Assembly (NCBI RefSeq): GCF_025949695.1
Contig: NZ_JAPDFL010000002.1
Coordinates: 62,001-126,000 of the forward strand
Length of the DNA stretch: 64,000 nucleotides
Direction: 5' to 3'
Source: Pararhodobacter zhoushanensis
GTDB taxonomy: Bacteria > Pseudomonadota > Alphaproteobacteria > Rhodobacterales > Rhodobacteraceae
Numbering within the stretch: the first letter of the stretch is position 1; the number at the start of each line of letters is the position of its first letter. A program made the position numbers and the translations under genes. Below the pieces are notes generated by a model that saw nothing but the letters and a program-made list of their open reading frames with translations, was not told the origin of the DNA and did not search any database. Positions 25,326 to 56,945 of the stretch are shown here, piece after piece.

Positions 25326-25417
25326 GAGAAACACGTACGGGCCCCAGCCGTGCTGCCCGGTTTCGTGCCGGCAGCAGATCGCGGACATGCGCCGCACCCA
25401 TGAGGAGGAGAACACCC

Positions 25418-44060: not shown

Positions 44061-44815
44061 GCACGGGACGGATCGCACTGGTCACCGGCGCGGGCGGGCC
44101 CATGGGCCGCGCAGTCGCGGCGCGGCTTGTGGCCGAGGGGGTCGCAGGACTGGTGCTGACCGATATTTCCGCCCGTCGGCTGGAGGAAACCGCAGCGACC
44201 CTGCGCGCCCTGCCCGGCGCGCCGCGCCTTGTGGTGCAGCGCGCAGACGTGACCCTCGCCGCCGAGGCGCGGGCCGTGGCCGAGGCGGCGCTGGCCGCGT
44301 TCGATCAGGTGGATTTGCTGGTCAATCTGGTGGGCGGGCTGCGGTCGAGGGCGCTCTACACCCCGTTCCTGTCGATGGACGAAACCCGCTGGCGGCAGAC
44401 GTTCGATCTGAACCTGATGGGTGGCTTTCATCTGATGCAGGCGTTGGTGCCGGGGATGATCGACCGGGGTTTCGGGCGCATCGTCAACGTCGCGTCTATC
44501 GTCTTTGCCGGGGAAAAGGGGCAGGCCGACTACGCAGCCGCCAAGGCCGCCGTCGCCTCGCTCACCCGGTCGCTGGCCGCGGAATTTGCCCCGCATGTCA
44601 CGGTGAATTGTGTTGCTCCCGGCCTGACCAACACGTCGGTCACGCGCAACATGCCCGCCGCCGAGACCGCGCGGCTGGTGGCGGGCAGCTTCATTCCCCG
44701 CCTCGCGGAACCTGAAGAAACTGCCGCAGCCATCGCCTTTTTCCTGCGCGACGAGGCGGCCTTTGTCACCGGCGAGATCCTTGCCGTGGCGGGCGGCATT
44801 CATCCCCATCTGTAG
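44057..44815 (+). CDS. SDR oxidoreductase at the end of the aliA operon
   Basis: 252 residues, GTG start overlapping the aliA stop. TGAGGPMG cofactor loop, NLVGGL in place of NNAG, catalytic YAAAK, CVAPGLTNTSV. It is the fourth SDR of the island. Possibly handles a substituted (for example hydroxylated) ring substrate; the atypical NLVG motif is worth noting. Substrate unknown. Confidence 0.85.
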   Translation: MSTGRIALVTGAGGPMGRAVAARLVAEGVAGLVLTDISARRLEETAATLRALPGAPRLVVQRADVTLAAEARAVAEAALAAFDQVDLLVNLVGGLRSRALYTPFLSMDETRWRQTFDLNLMGGFHLMQALVPGMIDRGFGRIVNVASIVFAGEKGQADYAAAKAAVASLTRSLAAEFAPHVTVNCVAPGLTNTSVTRNMPAAETARLVAGSFIPRLAEPEETAAAIAFFLRDEAAFVTGEILAVAGGIHPHL

Positions 44816-44941: not shown

Positions 44942-47215
44942 ATGAGAAGTGACGTTCAGCCATTGGCAGCAGACGCTTCGCGCAAACCGCTGGAGCTGGG
45001 CGCAGACCCGGAACTGGCTATGGATCGGATGCAGATCCCGGAAAATGCGCCACTTTTCATCAAACGCGGCGTGATGTTGCGCCAGTCCGGACAACTGGCC
45101 GAAAGCAGGTCTCTGCTCACGTCGGTGGTCGACGCTCATCCTGAAAATCTGGGCGCGCGGCATGAGCTTGCCGTGACGCTGCGGCTTCTTGGGGACTACG
45201 CAAGCAGCTTGGACCTGAGTGAAAAGATCCTGTCCGCCCGTCCCATGCATCGACCATCCTTGCTGGCCTGTATCGATACCAATGCGCATGCGCGGAACTT
45301 TGACGGGGCACTGGCAGCAGCGGAACGCGCTGTCGAGCGCTTGCCGGACGACGCGCAACTCCTGACGAGACGCGGTGCCATGCTGCGCCATCTGAACCGG
45401 CTTGACGAAAGCCGCGCGATCCTTTCGTCGGTCGTGGACATTTTTCCCGACGACCTGGCGGCAAAGCATGAACTGGCCGTCACCCTCCGGCTTATGGGTG
45501 ACCATGAGGGCAGTCATGAATTGACGCAAAGCATCCTGACAAGCCGTCCGGATCATCGCCCGTCCCTGCTGGCCTCTGTCGAGGCCACCATCCGTTCCGG
45601 GAATGTCGAAGCAGCACTCGCAGCGGTAGACCGGGCACTTGAGAGTATCCCCCAAGATCGCCAATTGCTGACGAAGCGCGGCATAGTCCTTCGCCAGTTG
45701 AACCGCCTGAACGAAAGCAAATCCGTGCTTTCTGCGGTGGTCGACGCCTATCCCGATGCAACGGGTGAAGCCCATGAACTGGCGGTCACTCTGCGGCAAT
45801 TGGGCGACTATGCCAACAGCCTGACGCAGAGCGAAGCCATCCTGAAAAACCACCCGGCGCATTGGCCCTCTTTGCTGGCCTGTATCGACACGAATGCGCT
45901 TGCGCGGGATTTCGAAGCCGCTCTCGCGGCCGCAGACCGGGCCCTGCTGCGTCTGCCGGACAATGTGATGGTCTTGAGCAGACGCAGTGCCACGCTGCAG
46001 CAGCTTGGGCGGACCGATGAAAGCATCGCTGACCTGCGCAAGGCGCTCGCGCTTAATCCCGGCAACACCGACCTTCGCCACAGCCTTGCCGCGTCGCTGC
46101 GAGCATCCGGGGAAACACGCGAAAGCGCCGCAATTTTTCGCTCTCTTCTTGCCGAGGCACCGGGTCATCAGGGTGCCTTGATCGGGCACATAGAAGGTTT
46201 GCTGCAAGATCATCAGCTGGATGACGCGCTGACGTTGATCGATCAGGCCCTTGCAGCCGATCCCAAGAACATCGCACTCAGTGTCAAGCGCGCTGACGTC
46301 CTTACCCATATGGGCAAGGACAGCGCAAGGATCGAGCAGTTGCAGAGGGTTCATGCCATCACGCCCGGGTTGCCGCATGTTGCCCGGTCGCTGCACGCTG
46401 CTTTGATCGAGGATTTCAGGTTCGACGAAGCCGATACCGTCTTGCGTACCTATGTCGAAGCGCCCGGTGACGCGCGTGAAATGCGAAAGCAGAAAATCAG
46501 GTTTTGTCTTGAAACGGGGCAGCTTGCGAAAGCTCTCGATCTGGTGCAGGCGTGGCTTTCCGAGCTTCCGGACAGCCCGGACGCTTTGCTCTGCTTCTTT
46601 CAGGTCCGGATCGCAGCGCTGCAACTTGATGATCTGGGTGCGCTTGAAGAGACGTTGCTGAAGGCCATTCCGGCTTCGGAGGAACTGGTCTCATCCATGA
46701 CGTCCCTGCGCACAGCGGTTTGGGATTTCGAGGGGGCGGTCCGCGTTTGCGAAAGCTTTCTTGCCACCTACCCGAAATCCAAGCGGGTTCGCGAACGGCT
46801 GATGGATCTTTTGTGGACCATGGGCGACCTTGAGCGCTTCAAGGCCGCGTTGAACGACCAGCCCAACGATCAGCATGAAGCGGCGTTCCGACTGATTAAC
46901 CTTCTTATCGAGATGCGATCCTGGGATCAGGCGCGAACCCATCTGGTCCGTCTGGAAAATGCGGTACAGGGCGTCGCAGATCCAAGCGTGAGATCAAGTT
47001 TCCTGATGCGCATTCACAGAGCCTACGACAGGATGGGTGACGGCGCTGCCCTCAAGATCGCTGATCGCCTCGGGTCCGTTCCGTATTTGCGGCAGAACGT
47101 CAGACACTATGTCACCCTGGCAGACGGTCATCATGCCGGAAATGAACAGCCGACCCCAACCAAGGGCGCGCCCCTCTTCTCGAAATTCTATTCGGCGAAA
47201 CATACGCGCCCCTGA
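44942..47215 (+). CDS. Large TPR-repeat protein, head of the accessory cluster
   Basis: 757 residues from the ATG at 44942; an ATG at 44861 gives 784. Neither has a strong ribosome-binding site. Residues about 30-350 are three near-copies of a 102-residue block (three TPR units each), followed by degenerate TPRs to about residue 560 and a helical C-terminal part. No signal peptide or membrane segment. TPR scaffolds bind partner proteins; the following acyltransferase, radical SAM and P450 are candidates. G+C is lower than in flanking operons. The last 14 or so residues look non-native: a second frame there is better coding sequence and runs into the acyltransferase. Confidence 0.8.
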   Translation: MRSDVQPLAADASRKPLELGADPELAMDRMQIPENAPLFIKRGVMLRQSGQLAESRSLLTSVVDAHPENLGARHELAVTLRLLGDYASSLDLSEKILSARPMHRPSLLACIDTNAHARNFDGALAAAERAVERLPDDAQLLTRRGAMLRHLNRLDESRAILSSVVDIFPDDLAAKHELAVTLRLMGDHEGSHELTQSILTSRPDHRPSLLASVEATIRSGNVEAALAAVDRALESIPQDRQLLTKRGIVLRQLNRLNESKSVLSAVVDAYPDATGEAHELAVTLRQLGDYANSLTQSEAILKNHPAHWPSLLACIDTNALARDFEAALAAADRALLRLPDNVMVLSRRSATLQQLGRTDESIADLRKALALNPGNTDLRHSLAASLRASGETRESAAIFRSLLAEAPGHQGALIGHIEGLLQDHQLDDALTLIDQALAADPKNIALSVKRADVLTHMGKDSARIEQLQRVHAITPGLPHVARSLHAALIEDFRFDEADTVLRTYVEAPGDAREMRKQKIRFCLETGQLAKALDLVQAWLSELPDSPDALLCFFQVRIAALQLDDLGALEETLLKAIPASEELVSSMTSLRTAVWDFEGAVRVCESFLATYPKSKRVRERLMDLLWTMGDLERFKAALNDQPNDQHEAAFRLINLLIEMRSWDQARTHLVRLENAVQGVADPSVRSSFLMRIHRAYDRMGDGAALKIADRLGSVPYLRQNVRHYVTLADGHHAGNEQPTPTKGAPLFSKFYSAKHTRP
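45038..45955 (+). repeat. Three tandem 306-bp coding repeats in the TPR gene
   Basis: Units at 45038-45343, 45344-45649 and 45650-45955 each encode 102 residues with the same landmarks (RRG/KRG-x-x-LRQ, HELAVTLRxxGD, RPSLLA). A diverged fourth unit starts at 45956. Copies share words such as HELAVTLR and DRALERLP-like ends at the protein level while DNA differs moderately, so the duplication is not very recent. Confidence 0.75.
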
Positions 47216-47241
47216 CGCTGCCCTCCGAGCAGGTCGCCATT

Positions 47242-48027
47242 GTGAAGCGGATCGCCAAGCCGAGCATCGGCAGTTATGAGACGTGGCTGAAGCAGATCCT
47301 GAAGGCTGCCAACGTCTCCAGGTCGTTGAACCTTTGCTACATGGAGCATCCTGAGAGTTTTTCGGCCTTGGATCCCCTCGTGGACTTTCCGGATGCTCAG
47401 ATTCTCCTGAACCATGCCGCGCGCGGTGAACCCTTCCTGATTGCCAGCACGCATCAGGGACCGCATTTGGCCGCGTGGTGGCTTGCCAAATTCCTTCCAA
47501 ATTTGCGTATCTTGTCCAACCAGACTGCTGTACGAACGGACTCTCCGATCAGTGGCGCGCCGCTGGTGATCGACGGATCGTCCTCGGGCGGGCGCGAACT
47601 GCTTTCTCTGCTGAAGAAGGGAACGGCAATCGCAGGGTCGATTGATCAGCCCATTGTCGCGGACAAGAAGTTCGAAAGTGATCGTTTCACGCTAGAGCTG
47701 TCCCTCTTCGATTTGCCGCCGATCAGAGTGTCCACCCTGATTCCCCGACTGGCCTGGAAACACCGCGTGCCGAGTTACTGGATGGCAACGCGTCTGGACG
47801 CAGGGAAGATCCGGTTCGACCTTGCGCGCATGCCGGATGCGACCGAAGAAACCGGCTGGGCCGAATGGGCACAAATCTGGATGTCACAGTACAAAGCGCA
47901 TCTGGAGCAGTATTTGCAGCAAGGCCCTGAGAACCTGAACCTGCCCAACGCGCTGTTCGAAGCGATAGCCGGGAGCATTCACAGGCACGGTGGCGGCGCC
48001 GCGCTGGCAGACGGGAAGACGCTGTGA
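47242..48027 (+). CDS. Putative LpxL/HtrB-like acyltransferase (N-terminus uncertain)
   Basis: 261 residues from a GTG with only a weak AGCAGG upstream. A His-containing STHQGPHLAAWW near residue 69 is in the place of the acyltransferase HxxxxE/D motif. The later LLSLLKKGTAIAGSIDQ and RLAWKHRVPSYWM stretches resemble lipid A acyltransferase-like proteins, but the match is distant. Coding-like sequence in the same frame continues upstream to 47146 (LLEILFGETYAP, LTLPSEQ) with no start codon, so the true protein may be fused to the TPR gene through a one-base frameshift. It overlaps the radical SAM gene by 4 bp (GTGA). Confidence 0.5.
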   Translation: MKRIAKPSIGSYETWLKQILKAANVSRSLNLCYMEHPESFSALDPLVDFPDAQILLNHAARGEPFLIASTHQGPHLAAWWLAKFLPNLRILSNQTAVRTDSPISGAPLVIDGSSSGGRELLSLLKKGTAIAGSIDQPIVADKKFESDRFTLELSLFDLPPIRVSTLIPRLAWKHRVPSYWMATRLDAGKIRFDLARMPDATEETGWAEWAQIWMSQYKAHLEQYLQQGPENLNLPNALFEAIAGSIHRHGGGAALADGKTL

Positions 48028-49165
48028 CGATATCCGCATCCAAGCCCGGGACAGGCCAAAATCTGCTGACCGACACGACAATCACACTGGCGCGCCAAAC
48101 CAACGCGCGCATTCAGGGATTGATCGCACAGGCACCGGATCTTCAAGCGCGCTACGAAACGGCGCGAAAGATCATTCGCGCCTTTCGGAGGCCCAGTTTT
48201 TACGAGGTCAGCCAAAAGTGCAATCTTTGGTGCGAGGGCTGCTACTACTTCGAAAACGACAAACGGCAGGTTGTCGGAAACGAAATGTCCGATGACGGAT
48301 GGGATGCCTTTTTTGCCGCCGAGCACGACAGGGGTGTCTCGATGGCCTATCTCGTGGGGGCGGAACCGTCGCTTTATCCCCACAGACTGCGCGCGGCGAC
48401 AAAGAATATCCGGTACGGCAAGATCGGGACCAACGGCACCGTCGTCATCCCCCGCGACATCAGCTTTCGCATCGGCATATCGGTCTGGGGCAACGAGACG
48501 GACGATGCGGTGCTTCGGGGGGCTCGGTGCTGCGCAAGGCCATGCGGAATTATACCGGCGACCCCCGCGCCGTGATGCTGTTCACGCTGTCTCCGTGGAA
48601 CCTCGACAGTGTCGGGGACGTCTTGAAGGCAGCAGAAGATCATGACGTGAAGCTGACGTTCTCCATGTACTCGGCGACCACATCCTATCTTGCCAAACTC
48701 ACCGCCGGTACTGCGGCAGACAGCAAGTATTTCCGCCTTGGCCCCTCGTTGGCCCGGGCGGTCTTTACGGATGCTGATCTCGCCAAGGCCCATGAGGCGA
48801 TGCTTGATGCCATGCAACGCTATCCCGACACGGTCATCTTTTCGGCCGAGTATGCGGATCTGATCACCCGGCCCGGTCCGCTGTACGACATGGATCCGGC
48901 AACAGGCCTGCCGCTTGATTGCGGCTCCCGCATCCGCGATCCGCTGCGTTATTTCGACACGGCAGGAACGCAGAAACAGATGAAATGCTGCACGCCCGAT
49001 GTGGATTGCAATCATTGCCGCTTGTACAGCGGAAGCTGGTCGAAACTTTTCAAGCCGACGCAAAAGCACCTCGCCGATGTGGGGTCTTTCGAGGGTTGGT
49101 TGAGCATGATCGAAACCATCGGCCAGATCTTTCTGTATCCCTTTCCCTTTGAGAGCGACGCATGA
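48024..49165 (+). pseudogene. Radical SAM protein, interrupted by a -1 frameshift at a G6 tract
   Basis: The first frame (48024 onward) carries CNLWCEGC near residue 66, a CX3CX2C site for the SAM-binding [4Fe-4S] cluster. It runs as GISVWGNETDDAVLRG before going out of frame. The third frame resumes at once with GGSVLRKAMRNYTGDPRAV and continues to a TGA at 49163. One extra G in the tract at 48517-48522 restores an intact 380-residue protein. The C-terminal region has KCCTPDVDCNHC, a possible auxiliary cluster. Overall order resembles HpnH-like radical SAM enzymes. Its end overlaps the P450 start (ATGA). Either a sequencing error or a real inactivation. Confidence 0.75.
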
Positions 49166-50457
49166 TCCACGTCCCCAAACTGAACCTGCGCGGTTCCGAG
49201 GCGACGCTGCGCTCGGCGGTCAAGGCGTGTCGCCTTCCCGAGCAGACATGGCCCGTGGACATCCTGCATCGTCGACTCTGTGTTTCGCAGCGCACCAGCA
49301 GAACGGTTGTGCTTCTGGCCGATCCCGCCGAGGTATCGCGCGTCCTTGTCGAAAGCGAAAAGCAATTTCCGAAATGGATGCCCATCTATCGCCATTCGGC
49401 AGCGCGCGAGACGGGAACCGGCACGATCTTCGCCTCCACGGACGCGGACTGGGCGCCGCTGCGCCGCGCGATCAAACCACTGTTTCACAGCAGCCGGTGG
49501 TCGTTGCTTGTCGATGTCGCCCGACATGCGACGCTTGACGCCACCACCACGTGCAATCCGGTGAACATCGAGGCGTTCTTCACAGCCATCTCGGTCGATG
49601 TGATCATGCGCACCCTTGTTGGCGATGACGCGGACGCAACAGCAGATTACCACCTTGCCGCCATTGCCCAGGGTCTGGTCGAAAAGCAGCACGCCGGTGA
49701 TCTGCACGGGGCGATGCAGCATATTCACGAGTTGGCAACGACATGCACCTCCCGCGGCCCCGGCGCTGCTGCGATCTCCGGCGTTGACATGGCGGGCGCA
49801 CTCCCACCCCGCCCGCGTCCGATGCAAGAGCCCTTCCTGGCCGACAACCGTCTTGCCCTGCTTTACGCAGGTCAGGAGACCACGGCGCTGACCATGAGTT
49901 GGTGCTTCTGGATCCTGGGGCAGGACGAGGAATTGCAAAGCAGACTGCGCAGCGAAACCCGCGACGCGCAAGCTGCCACAGGATCGCTGTCTCCCGAGGC
50001 GATCGGAAAGATGCCGCGGCTGATGGCGGTCCTGCGGGAAACCCTGCGTCTCCTGTCTCCCTCGTCCGCCACCGTGCGATGCACGACACAAGACGAGACC
50101 CTGTGCGGTCAAGCGATCCCCGCAAACAGCGTCATCGTGGTCCCCATCTACGCGATTCACCGTCACCGGGATCTCTGGGACCAGCCTGACACCTTCGACG
50201 CCGAGCGGTTCTTGCGCCCGATCAAACACCCGATGGCTTATCTGCCCTTCGCGGCAGGCCGCCATACCTGTTCGGCAGCGCGCAGCGTGATGTACGAGAT
50301 GGCCGCCGTCCTCGCGACAATGCTGGACCGGTTTGAGTGGGTGACACACGCGCCCGAGGACATGGGTCTGACCAACAAGCTTGTGTTGTCCCCCACATCC
50401 GAAATGAAAGTGACACTCAACGCACTGGAGCCACGCGGCGCGGCCGTCATTGCATGA
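49162..50457 (+). CDS. Cytochrome P450
   Basis: 431 residues. I-helix oxygen-activation motif AGQETT (around residue 235), K-helix ETLRLL (ExxR), PERF-like DAERFLRP, and the haem loop PFAAGRHTCSAAR with the Cys ligand. No membrane anchor, so a soluble bacterial type. Coupled to the radical SAM gene by a 4-bp overlap, and convergent with the carbamoyltransferase gene (11-bp overlap). No ferredoxin or reductase gene is nearby. Probably oxidises a product of this cluster. Confidence 0.92.
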   Translation: MIHVPKLNLRGSEATLRSAVKACRLPEQTWPVDILHRRLCVSQRTSRTVVLLADPAEVSRVLVESEKQFPKWMPIYRHSAARETGTGTIFASTDADWAPLRRAIKPLFHSSRWSLLVDVARHATLDATTTCNPVNIEAFFTAISVDVIMRTLVGDDADATADYHLAAIAQGLVEKQHAGDLHGAMQHIHELATTCTSRGPGAAAISGVDMAGALPPRPRPMQEPFLADNRLALLYAGQETTALTMSWCFWILGQDEELQSRLRSETRDAQAATGSLSPEAIGKMPRLMAVLRETLRLLSPSSATVRCTTQDETLCGQAIPANSVIVVPIYAIHRHRDLWDQPDTFDAERFLRPIKHPMAYLPFAAGRHTCSAARSVMYEMAAVLATMLDRFEWVTHAPEDMGLTNKLVLSPTSEMKVTLNALEPRGAAVIA

Positions 50458-52330
50458 GAGACCAGGCCTGAACACCGTTTCTGGCCAGCCGCGCGGCATA
50501 TCGGCGCAAGCGCTCTGCCGACGTCCGAACCGTGATGTCCACGCCCTCGAACGCGGGAAGAAACTGGCGCATTGCCAAAGTGTTTCTGTCCAGCCCGTGC
50601 GGATTGACCTCGGCGCGGAGACGCGCAATCTCTGCCGGCGCAGAGCGAAACAGCGGTGCTATCGACCGCTCGCTCAGAACTGTGGTATCACGAACCGCGT
50701 CGGCGACGACGGCATGGCGCCGCCCGTCCACGTAGACGGCGGGAAGGCCACGGCGTCTGGCAAAGATCAGGGCCTCTTCCAGCACGTTTATGATCGGCTC
50801 GCCTTTGTCGTTCAGAGACGTGTTGCAGAGCATCGGCACACCGGTACTGGCATGAAATGCCTGCAAAAGGTCATACAGAAGCGGCGCTTCTTCGCGTGTC
50901 AGGGTCTGGATGCGCGCAGACCGATCCAGATGTGATATCGCGGGAACGCGCGCGGCTTTCTCGGGTCGCAGCGTAAACGTGCGCAGCATGAAGGGCGACC
51001 GATCCGCGTCGCTGAACCATTCCCTGACCTGATCGGCCAGAATGACCGGCGCGACCGGCCGCCACCACTGGCGACGTTTGATCTGGTTCAGCCGGTCCTT
51101 CATCGTGTCCTGACGAGGATCGGCCAGCAGACTTCTGTGGCCAAGTGCGCGCGGCCCGATTTCGGCCCGTCCTTCCATCCAGACAATCGGACCCTTCGCA
51201 AGATCTTCCAGAATTACATCTGTCCTGACCGGGGCGGATGCCGTTTCGACCGACGCAAGGGAGCCGTGTCCTGAGCTCTGCATGGAAAACTGAAAGCGTT
51301 CCATTCGCGCCTTGAAGTACATCAACCCGTATCCGAGTGAGATTCCTCCGTCGTTCACGGCGGGCAGGGCCTGAAAATCGGCGAAGCCAAAAGTTCTCAT
51401 CACATGGGAATTGCTGCGGCAGTTCAGGGCAAAACCGCCTCCCATGGCCAGAGTGGTTTTCGCCGGGTCCATGCCTTCGCTTTCAAGTATCCCTCGCACG
51501 GTTCGGCAGACCTGAGCCTCGGAAACCCGTTGGATGATCTTCATCAGCATCGCGATGCGGTTTTCCGACGCGCTGAACTGCGGATCAAATCCGGTGTGCC
51601 CTGTGCCCTTCGCGCTGGAGTCGAGCCCCGACAGGGTGGCATGCAAGCGCTGCACCCACTCATAGGCGGCCTTGTAATCCTGCATGGCGATCACCGAGGG
51701 AGCATCCTCGACCGAGCCCATGTACGCCGTCCGCGAGGCAGAACCCAGCGCCATCAGGGACCCTTCTTCCATCCCTGTCAGATGGCGTGCTGCGCTCCAC
51801 AAAGGCGCCGGCGAGCTGACCGAAAACAAGCGGGCGTCACCCTTGCGAGACACAGCGCCAGCATAGAGGGGAGACTTGAGGCCGGGCTTGCCCAGAACGG
51901 TGTCAGGCCCTCCATCCAGCGCCAGCCCGATCATGTCGCCTTCGAAATAGCGATCGGTTTCAGCCAGCATGGCCCCGAACAGATGCGCCCTTGTATGCGC
52001 GTTCAGATCATCAGCACCGTCCCATGCCCCGTCACTGTGCGGCAAGCCGGGCGTGCCGAAGATCGCCCGCACATCAGAGCGGTCGACACCGGCCTCAGCC
52101 AACAACCTGTCAATCACCTCCAGCGCCTGCGCAGGATTGGCGAATGACCGGCTGTGATGCTTCTGGCCGGAATACCGCTCGAACTCCCAATACCGCACAA
52201 GGGTTACCTGCTCGCCCGTCTTGAGCCAGAGCGCCATGTTCTGATCATGGCGTACCGCAATCTCATACGCGTGACAGAGCGCATCAATGTGAGCGTATAC
52301 AGAAAGATAGAGGCCGTCTTTGCAAGTCAT
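50447..52330 (-). CDS. O-carbamoyltransferase, NodU/CmcH family
   Basis: 627 residues from the ATG at 52330 (GGGGGTGG upstream; an ATG at 52372 lacks a site). The N-terminal ASKHA-like domain contains HTRAHLFGA, in the place of the metal-binding His motif, and GLALDGGPD. The C-terminal domain has EGRAEIGPRALGHRSLL, RRQWWRPVAP and NTSLNDKGEPI, classic for the family. These enzymes transfer a carbamoyl group from carbamoyl phosphate, via carbamoyl-AMP, to a hydroxyl of sugars, antibiotics or Nod factors. Together with a P450 this suggests tailoring of a secondary metabolite. Confidence 0.9.
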   Translation of the reverse strand: MTCKDGLYLSVYAHIDALCHAYEIAVRHDQNMALWLKTGEQVTLVRYWEFERYSGQKHHSRSFANPAQALEVIDRLLAEAGVDRSDVRAIFGTPGLPHSDGAWDGADDLNAHTRAHLFGAMLAETDRYFEGDMIGLALDGGPDTVLGKPGLKSPLYAGAVSRKGDARLFSVSSPAPLWSAARHLTGMEEGSLMALGSASRTAYMGSVEDAPSVIAMQDYKAAYEWVQRLHATLSGLDSSAKGTGHTGFDPQFSASENRIAMLMKIIQRVSEAQVCRTVRGILESEGMDPAKTTLAMGGGFALNCRSNSHVMRTFGFADFQALPAVNDGGISLGYGLMYFKARMERFQFSMQSSGHGSLASVETASAPVRTDVILEDLAKGPIVWMEGRAEIGPRALGHRSLLADPRQDTMKDRLNQIKRRQWWRPVAPVILADQVREWFSDADRSPFMLRTFTLRPEKAARVPAISHLDRSARIQTLTREEAPLLYDLLQAFHASTGVPMLCNTSLNDKGEPIINVLEEALIFARRRGLPAVYVDGRRHAVVADAVRDTTVLSERSIAPLFRSAPAEIARLRAEVNPHGLDRNTLAMRQFLPAFEGVDITVRTSAERLRRYAARLARNGVQAWSLMQ

Positions 52331-52724: not shown

Positions 52725-53489
52725 ATGCGACTGAACTTTCAACGATTTGGCGGACGTCACCTTGCTTTCTCCGCAGCTCTGGCGACTTTGATGGCGGCCT
52801 CGGCGACGGCCCAGCCGATGCCAGACCTGCAATCCTGTGGCACCGCTGGTCCTTCGCGGCTCAGTGTCGTGGGCGACGGACAGTCACGCGCTGCCCCGGA
52901 TCTGGCGACGGTGCAGGTCGGCGTGACCACCCAAGCCGACAGCGCAGCGGAAGCAATGCGCCTGAACGCGCAACAACAGACGGCGGTGATTGAGGCCCTT
53001 GGCGCTGCCGGGATCGCCGGGGAGAACCTGCAGACCTCGGGCGTGACCCTGTCCCCGCAAATGGCTTATAACGAGGGCCAGCCGCCCACCGTCACCGGGT
53101 ATCAGGCCAGAAATATGGTCAGCGTCCGCATGTCGGACCTGACTCGCGTCGGCGAGGTTCTCGACACCATCGTGGCCGCCGGTGCCAACGAGATCAACGG
53201 CATCTCCTTCACGCTTGAAAACGCTGCGGACGCCATGGATGACGCCCTTCGCGCAGCCGTAGCCGATGCGCGGCGCAAGGCCGAGGTGCTGGCCGAGTCG
53301 TCTGGTCTTTCGTTGGGTGCCGTCATCACGGTTCGCGACCTGCCGTCTGGTGTCAGCGATCCAAGCCCGATGATGCGCATGCAAGCCGATTCAGCAGGGT
53401 CAGTCCCCATCCAGGCGGGTGAAGCGAGTTTGGCGGCGCGCGTCGAAATCGTGTACGCACTGACCGGTGACGGCGCCTGCGCCCAATAA
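52725..53489 (+). CDS. SIMPL-domain (DUF541) periplasmic protein
   Basis: 254 residues from the ATG at 52725 (AAGGG upstream). A signal peptide ends near ATAQ. The DUF541 pattern is clear: LSVVGDGQSRAAPDLATVQVGVTT in pieces, MRLNAQQQTAVIEAL, GYQARNMVSVRM and ARRKAEVLAESSGLSLG. Relatives (BP26, YggE) form periplasmic channel-like rings and are linked to oxidative-stress tolerance. Stands alone between two clusters. Confidence 0.9.
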   Translation: MRLNFQRFGGRHLAFSAALATLMAASATAQPMPDLQSCGTAGPSRLSVVGDGQSRAAPDLATVQVGVTTQADSAAEAMRLNAQQQTAVIEALGAAGIAGENLQTSGVTLSPQMAYNEGQPPTVTGYQARNMVSVRMSDLTRVGEVLDTIVAAGANEINGISFTLENAADAMDDALRAAVADARRKAEVLAESSGLSLGAVITVRDLPSGVSDPSPMMRMQADSAGSVPIQAGEASLAARVEIVYALTGDGACAQ

Positions 53490-56045: not shown

Positions 56046-56945
56046 TCAAATTCTCCGAACCGGCGGTTTGCCGAACAGCCCATACGGGCGCACCAGCAGA
56101 ACCAGCAGCATGACGATATACGGGGCGACCGCGTCCAGCTCGGGCACGTAATAGATCGCCAGCACCCGCACGAGAGCAACGATGATCGCGGCCAGTGCCG
56201 CGCCTTCGATCTGGCCCAGCCCGCCGATGGCGGCGACGGCAAAGGCCAGCACCATGGTGTCCGCGCCCAGTCCGGGGGCCACGCCCATCGTCGGCGTGGC
56301 CATCGCCCCACCCAGCGCCGCCAGAAACACGCCCAGCGTGAAGGCAAGCGTGAAAATGCGGCGCGTGTTGATGCCCATCGCTTCGGACACTTCGCGGTCG
56401 GCGACGACCACGGCCAGCAGCCTGCCAGTGCGCGTGTGGCGGATGAACAGTCGGGTGCCAAACAGCGCCACGGCGGCGACAGCGATCAGCAGCAGCTGAT
56501 AATTCAGATAGATGATGCCGCCAATCTCACTGATGCCCAGCAGCGCCATCGGTGTGTCGGCGTAAAGCGACGAGACACCAAAGACGAGCCGCTGCAGGTC
56601 TTCAAGGATCAGGAACAGCGCGAAAGTCACCAGAATCTGCACGGCCTCGCCGCGCCCATAGGTCCAGCGCACCAGCGTCATTTCGATCAGCGGGCCAAAA
56701 AGGGCAGCGACAAAGGCCGCCGAGAGCAACAGCGCGGGAAAGGTCAGCCACGGGTTCAGCCCGGCGCTGATGATCCACAGACCAAAACTGGCCGCGACAT
56801 ACGCACCGATGGAGTAAAGGCTGCCATGCGCGACGTTCAGCACGCGCAGCACGCTGAAGGCCAGTGTCAGGCCGAAGGCGACGAAAAAGATGATCGCGGC
56901 ATTGGCCAGCGCATCGACAAACAGGGGTATCAGGGTCGAGACCAT
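56046..56945 (-). CDS. Branched-chain-type ABC transporter permease, LivH-type (second importer)
   Basis: 299 residues from the ATG at 56945 (GAGGAAA upstream). FFVAFGLTLAFSVLRVLNVAHGSLY is the LivH opening, and VVADREVSEAMGINTRRIFTL in pieces is the ATPase-contact loop. One base separates it from the LivM-type start. Confidence 0.91.
   Translation of the reverse strand: MVSTLIPLFVDALANAAIIFFVAFGLTLAFSVLRVLNVAHGSLYSIGAYVAASFGLWIISAGLNPWLTFPALLLSAAFVAALFGPLIEMTLVRWTYGRGEAVQILVTFALFLILEDLQRLVFGVSSLYADTPMALLGISEIGGIIYLNYQLLLIAVAAVALFGTRLFIRHTRTGRLLAVVVADREVSEAMGINTRRIFTLAFTLGVFLAALGGAMATPTMGVAPGLGADTMVLAFAVAAIGGLGQIEGAALAAIIVALVRVLAIYYVPELDAVAPYIVMLLVLLVRPYGLFGKPPVRRI

Follow-up and report, generated by a model that had tools for sequence, protein, structure and literature searches.

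Do five adjoining genes of the alphaproteobacterium Pararhodobacter zhoushanensis, encoding a tetratricopeptide repeat (TPR) protein, an acyltransferase-type protein (ACT), a radical S-adenosylmethionine enzyme (rSAM), a cytochrome P450 and a carbamoyltransferase, constitute a biosynthetic cluster, and what might such a cluster make? The genes occupy positions 44,942-52,330 of a 64,000-nucleotide stretch of contig NZ_JAPDFL010000002.1 (assembly GCF_025949695.1, positions 62,001-126,000), the whole of which is hereafter called the window. An original prediction, made from the sequence of the window without database searches, knew of no described pathway with this set of genes, and our search of open-licence papers likewise recognised the set in no description. 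The locus is a real and recurrent cluster type, undescribed within the searches made, and the copy in the window is interrupted at its central gene, that of rSAM.

Recurrence of the gene set in other genomes

Loci carrying rSAM were gathered by a profile search of genome contigs with an rSAM alignment; the 89 loci considered comprise the best 80 of 132 confirmed loci, the loci L007, L008, L011 and L102-L106, and the window. Exactly one acyl-type module was present within 6 kb in 20 of the 89 loci, and none held two classes of module. The modules were proteins of the lysophospholipid acyltransferase (LPLAT) type in seven loci (six genomes, L008 and L027 belonging to one genome), TPR proteins with a hydrolase-like C-terminus in six, and MBOAT proteins in seven. 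The MBOAT assignment was confirmed by Pfam in all four proteins tested, and the hydrolase-like label was given for a GxSxG-like motif, which we take to be a sign of a hydrolase, together with weak PDB matches (best E 0.2). A P450 was found in seven of the 89 loci and a carbamoyltransferase in four (the window, L007, L013 and L015), each of which also has a P450. None of the five partner classes occurred in any of the 62 distant rSAM loci, many of which are titled as Desulfobacterota-type metagenome-assembled genomes (MAGs), the division into close and distant loci having been made by score and context. Most of these distant loci (L029-L092, except L031 and L066) carry two rSAM genes of the wider family in tandem, approximately 1 kb apart.

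The strongest single case of recurrence is that of Leisingera sp. ANG1 (L015), in which uninterrupted genes for rSAM, P450, carbamoyltransferase and a fused TPR/LPLAT protein follow one another in the same orientation within 6 kb. Neighbouring genes there overlap by 4 bases at each of the three junctions, provided that the last gene starts at its first possible start codon (TTG). The order of these genes differs from that in the window, whilst their linkage is kept. Genes for rSAM, P450 and carbamoyltransferase were also found beside an MBOAT gene in L007 and L013 (a genome of the same class and a gammaproteobacterial MAG), and L017 and L018 hold rSAM, P450 and TPR-LPLAT. Homologues of the set thus do co-occur elsewhere, in L007, L013, L015, L017 and L018, and the outcome named as refuting the prediction did not arise; a search for the same gene order had been proposed, and it is the linkage that has held, the order being rearranged. 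As the set recurs in other genomes, the association of these genes is more than chance.

The six cluster P450s grouped as a single clade apart from ten others (support 100/99), in a tree without L126 and L128 (own-genome rows resembling wrong-strand open reading frames (ORFs)) and with the P450 of L031 among the ten others; the latter is a separate recruitment. An N-terminal PxLx(L/K) motif was present in six of six cluster P450s and in none of 12 other rows, two of which are doubtful.

Some loci have further genes. L008 adds a sulfotransferase and an Asp/Asn-hydroxylase-like gene, and a Methylomagnum plasmid (L011:10014-18806) carries an acyl carrier protein (ACP), a TauD/TfdA dioxygenase, an rSAM relative and a non-ribosomal peptide synthetase (NRPS), the C-terminal part of which reads by eye as a sulfotransferase followed by TPR. 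That plasmid aside, no NRPS or polyketide synthase (PKS) was noticed in the loci inspected; the predicted absence of both from the cluster itself agrees with the ORFs listed for 40-58 kb of the window, among which none was seen. Triplets of tandem phage-tail-collar-like proteins, at L015:16121-18009 and L007:18317-19838, lie near these two clusters (PF07484 in the one tested). Phage tail-collar proteins were considered as an essential substrate and ruled out, PF07484 being without a match in the window's genome.

Gene layout and the interrupted rSAM gene

The TPR protein, the acyltransferase-type protein, the P450 and the carbamoyltransferase were all found in their predicted places by ORFs, Pfam and profiles. 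The prediction had described the plus-strand genes as packed with 4-bp overlaps, and this is so for two junctions, ACT/rSAM (GTGA, 48,024-48,027) and rSAM/P450 (ATGA, 49,162-49,165), but not for TPR/ACT, where 26 bases separate the TPR stop codon from the first ACT start codon. The carbamoyltransferase gene, on the minus strand, does converge on the others, overlapping that of the P450 by 11 bp.

An rSAM gene was correctly foreseen as to family, though not as a single ORF. Its N-terminal half (48,024-48,575, plus strand), with the CxxxCxxC motif (CNLWCEGC), and its C-terminal half (48,516-49,165, plus strand), with a conserved Cys cluster, CCTPDVDCNHCR, are in different frames, and they align end to end with the intact rSAM of L007 at 49% and 45% identity, respectively. 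Codon usage changes frame inside the gene at 48,515/48,516. By codon-usage segmentation the upstream frame overshoots this break by 60 bases, compared with mostly 1-17 bases, plus values of 21, 26 and twice 34, at other same-strand junctions; two larger overshoots, of 310 (a 55-base segment at 25,370) and 333 (at 56,935), were taken for segmentation artefacts. Because the break sits in a G-rich run, sequencing error, real mutation and slippage are all possible. With its rSAM gene broken in this assembly, the strain probably lacks a working pathway, except if the break stems from an assembly error or if slippage bypasses it. A second rSAM of the subfamily (L106:9250-10345), from a different genus within the family, is also interrupted, though at another site.

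The interrupted gene scores 18 against a Pfam gathering value of 29.5; its family is given by the CxxxCxxC motif within 48,024-48,575 and by the radical SAM core fold of the intact relative from L007, for which 30 PDB chains were matched at E 0.001 or better. Intact relatives occur in L007, L013-L018 and others, and Cys columns C340, C347 and C350 are invariant in the alignment. The subfamily reached no NCBIfam family at its cut-off, and searches of five intact relatives against Pfam gave Radical_SAM below gathering for three, Fer4_12 below gathering for one and no match for one. Solved relatives were found at low similarity, namely SkfB (profile E 4.2e-12), SuiB (Foldseek), AbmM (8wm2) and BlsE. 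SPASM-type enzymes such as SkfB, SuiB and CbpB share with this subfamily the CxxxCxxC core, a C-terminal Cys cluster and a weak profile or fold match, whereas the subfamily lacks an NCBIfam assignment and no peptide partner was found for it.

A probable split VexE-like acyltransferase

The TPR protein (44,942-47,215, plus strand, in an ORF open from 44,861) matches Pfam TPR_19 (8.3e-43), and its gene contains three copies of a 306-nt (102-aa) unit at 45,226-45,945. It is followed by ACT (47,242-48,027, plus strand), which was assigned to the LPLAT fold from the VexE profile NF011721, alignment and a structure model. In seven relatives (L008, L015-L018, L110 and L111) TPR and LPLAT form a single ORF. 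In tblastn searches, homology to the fused proteins of L008 and L016 begins at approximately 47,176, inside the 3' end of the TPR gene; the ACT frame is open upstream of its first start codon, over 47,146-47,241 (plus strand), and codon usage switches frame at 47,189/47,190. As the homology to fused relatives extends upstream of the ACT start codon, TPR and ACT appear from their sequences to be one gene split in two, with the LPLAT domain complete. The TPR protein, which had been taken for a scaffold, is thereby kept as a TPR protein, though most likely as the N-terminal half of a VexE-like TPR-LPLAT acyltransferase and not as a separate scaffold.

ACT matched no Pfam family. It aligns with the C-terminal end of NF011721 (E 3.7e-10, 38.6 bits, below the curated cut-off of 1200), a profile that gives 21 to 140.6 bits for five fused relatives from rSAM loci and 439.8 bits for L110, L111 not being listed. 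The structure model of ACT (pLDDT 70.6, pTM 0.75) matched LpxM (5knk, E 5.6e-8) and also PatA in Foldseek, so the predicted structure bears out an acyltransferase-type protein; a search of PDB sequences with the LPLAT-domain profile gave nothing relevant, and the basis of the fold match is the model. All six aligned sequences keep H71 and D135, and in ACT the H(X)4D/E motif ends in a residue that is not acidic.

The VexE study (PMC9597891) reports that VexE requires H466 and D532, that its H(X)4D/E motif is also without the acidic residue, that LpxM and PatA are the folds closest to it, and that it transfers an acyl group from beta-hydroxyacyl-ACP to the C-6 hydroxyl of UDP-GlcNAc. VexE and the pair in the window are alike in joining TPR and LPLAT and in having a catalytic His, a distal Asp and a non-acidic H(X)4D/E. 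They differ in that the window pair lies in two frames, reaches 38.6 bits in place of 1200, and adjoins rSAM, P450 and carbamoyltransferase genes instead of those for capsule export. Two further relatives lie in other surroundings: L110:9164-10990, the closer VexE relative, comes from an alphaproteobacterium, where its neighbours, judged by eye, look like a capsule export locus, and L111:7004-10675 has an ACP-like ORF, TPR-LPLAT and an AMP-ligase-like ORF in a row (partly by eye).

Cytochrome P450 and carbamoyltransferase

The P450 (49,162-50,457, plus strand) is complete and matches PF00067 at 9.4e-49 (166.9 bits, cut-off 22.8), and its heme ligand, C370, is kept in all six cluster P450s.

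The NodU/TobZ-type carbamoyltransferase (50,447-52,330, minus strand; ORF from 52,372, probable start 52,330) is likewise complete, with a full C-terminal domain (PF16861 1.7e-55; Carbam_trans_C 187.6 bits, cut-off 27) and a divergent N-terminal part (Carbam_trans_N 24.8 bits, cut-off 24). It scores 150 bits on the profile of NodU proper (NF041651), below the curated cut-off of 1000, and its relatives by sequence are TobZ and GdmN. H126 and H130 (HxxxH) and D341 (residues counted from the start of the ORF, 52,372) are invariant in four of four sequences; HxxxH and an Asp form the metal site in TobZ. With TobZ, GdmN, NodU and CmcH the enzyme shares the C-terminal domain and this motif, whereas the part before approximately residue 260 could be aligned with no solved relative.

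The enzyme had been called an O-carbamoyltransferase. That specificity was an assumption and is not to be presumed, because a 2026 preprint (PMC13174530) reports that an amine, a lysine in a ribosomally synthesised and post-translationally modified peptide (RiPP), is carbamoylated by a NodU-like enzyme.

Genomic setting and distribution

The window is part of a 230-kb contig, one of two in a genome of 4.65 Mb. This contig encodes a RepABC-type RepA scoring 562 bits against a curated cut-off of 348, and on that sequence evidence it is therefore regarded as a plasmid or chromid. The cluster lies after an SDR gene, the end of which is at 44,815, and before a gene with a SIMPL domain (matched within 52,884-53,489), and no Rfam family matched 44.0-53.5 kb at the gathering score. 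Lower G+C than the surroundings had been predicted and was borne out, 44,942-52,330 having a G+C of 0.603 against 0.649 for the remainder of the window, whilst the lowest value among 210 segments of the same size that do not overlap the cluster (200-base steps) was 0.635.

Genome surveys covered approximately one species per genus and were incomplete for bearers, so their counts are rough. The C-terminal half of rSAM was found in 5 of 100 relatives at 1e-3 (two matches being marginal) and an rSAM model in 6 of 394 genomes of the family at E 1e-30. The carbamoyltransferase was found in one of 394 family genomes at E 1e-80, in one of 18 genus genomes at E 1e-60 (the window's own) and in one of 292 genomes of the order at 1e-100, and the TPR-LPLAT domain in 3 of 385 genomes of the class at 1e-8. 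The window's genome was the sole match or among the matches in every survey. The view that the system was acquired is consistent with its low G+C, its RepABC replicon and the single bearer of the carbamoyltransferase in the genus; the rarity of the cluster agrees, and horizontal acquisition fits these features together.

A proposed pathway

The reading that we favour, and to which we would give about an even chance, is that of a rare, horizontally moving, rSAM-centred locus for an acylated, P450-oxidised and carbamoylated small molecule, perhaps a glycolipid. rSAM would take the committed step, converting a common cell metabolite into an unusual core; this role is suggested because the partners vary and gather around rSAM, in loci that were found by rSAM. 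The VexE-like TPR-LPLAT protein would place a fatty acyl group, probably from acyl-ACP, on a hydroxyl of the core, perhaps that of a sugar or nucleotide sugar, the donor being suggested by the analogy with VexE and by the ACP-like ORF seen by eye beside TPR-LPLAT in L111. The P450 may hydroxylate after acyl transfer, and the carbamoyltransferase may add a carbamoyl group via carbamoyl-adenylate, the mechanism typical of the TobZ family. The acceptor of NodU is a sugar, and by analogy with NodU and VexE a sugar acceptor is plausible. We infer the order of these steps, the acyl donor, the acceptor and the product, as we do the lipid or small metabolite proposed by the original prediction.

Several points weigh against this reading. 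The acyl-type position is held by a hydrolase-like or MBOAT protein in other loci, and among the recurring genes we noticed none for a glycosyltransferase or for nucleotide sugars, so the sugar acceptor is weakly founded. The closest solved rSAMs, SkfB and SuiB, are peptide maturases, and rSAM is interrupted both in the window and in L106. The overshoot at TPR/ACT, of 26 bases, is not clearly abnormal by codon usage alone, since two other junctions show 34, and the LPLAT model is of moderate confidence, its profile finding no PDB sequence. P450s of different groups are 23-28% identical, and a first P450 tree, which included L126 and L128, gave support of 82/73. Seven close rSAM loci (L011, L019, L023-L026 and L066) lack all five partner classes within 6 kb, and L031 has partners yet scores to the rSAM queries no better than the distant loci. 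The LPLAT, MBOAT and hydrolase-like classes were set after the loci had been inspected, and some class queries come from counted loci, so the tally is partly self-matching and describes a pattern.

A broader proposal, which we hold more tentatively and at less than even odds, is that of a new class of rSAM-initiated acylated natural products. One rSAM subfamily would make the core, VexE-type TPR-LPLAT, TPR-hydrolase-like and MBOAT proteins would interchangeably attach or process the lipid, and decoration by P450, carbamoyl or sulfo groups would depend on the lineage.

Alternative explanations

The main rival to a small-molecule pathway, unlikely in our judgement, is that the substrate of rSAM, P450 and carbamoyltransferase is a peptide bound to the TPR region, in a RiPP-like or protein-modifying system, the LPLAT domain making a lipopeptide. 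The kinship of rSAM with SkfB and SuiB points this way, as does the lysine carbamoylation reported in PMC13174530. The best-ranked carbamoyltransferase matches in a plasmid collection were six Streptomyces plasmids; in two of the three inspected, the enzyme (approximately 41% identical) lies near YcaO, TfuA, a cupin protein, a methyltransferase and a conserved 32-aa ORF, whilst the third has peptidases and cupins there instead. The std cluster of Streptomyces thermodiastaticus, described in that preprint (PMC13174530), resembles the present one in that a small set of tailoring genes includes a NodU-like carbamoyltransferase, and differs in having YcaO-TfuA, an MNIO enzyme and a precursor peptide, none of which was noticed in the window cluster. 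Against a peptide substrate, 451 short ORFs from 18 loci gave no cross-locus match at E 0.01, a weak test that short precursors can escape, and Pfam revealed no peptide-binding domain (RRE) in five intact rSAMs, although divergent recognition domains can escape it. The 32-aa ORFs of the Streptomyces plasmids (L112:12542-12640 and L113:12549-12647), near-identical and situated between the TfuA/YcaO genes and those for cupin, methyltransferase and carbamoyltransferase, are a candidate precursor of a carbamoylated, thioamidated RiPP.

It is also rather improbable, in our view, that the locus is decaying cargo, a once functional cluster now being lost from a plasmid, with the rSAM break and the TPR/ACT split as real mutations. 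The interruption of rSAM here and in L106, a split in the window where seven of seven relatives are fused, and the patchy distribution would all follow from decay; the P450, carbamoyltransferase and ACT frames, on the other hand, are complete with their catalytic residues, and a small assembly error is possible.

We regard as very unlikely that TPR/ACT is a true VexE and that the set modifies the lipid anchor of a capsule or lipopolysaccharide, since, although both VexE domains are present and the close VexE relative of L110 (439.8 bits) lies in an apparent capsule export locus, ACT is far below the VexE cut-off, and we noticed no gene for capsule export next to the rSAM loci inspected or among the 40-58 kb ORFs, the rest of the genome not having been searched. 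That unrelated neighbours adjoin here by chance, as the patchy distribution and the single family genome bearing the carbamoyltransferase might suggest, is contradicted by the recurrence of the same families, linked in different orders in at least five other genomes, and by the single clade of the cluster P450s, and we consider it barely credible.

Implications

The finding is weaker for the window itself, its rSAM gene being interrupted, and the Leisingera locus, with its uninterrupted genes in one run, is the practical entry point. If the small-molecule reading is true, these loci would represent a compact kind of cluster, open to testing, with an uncharacterised rSAM subfamily at its centre, and VexE-type acylation would be extended from capsule anchors to the tailoring of small molecules.

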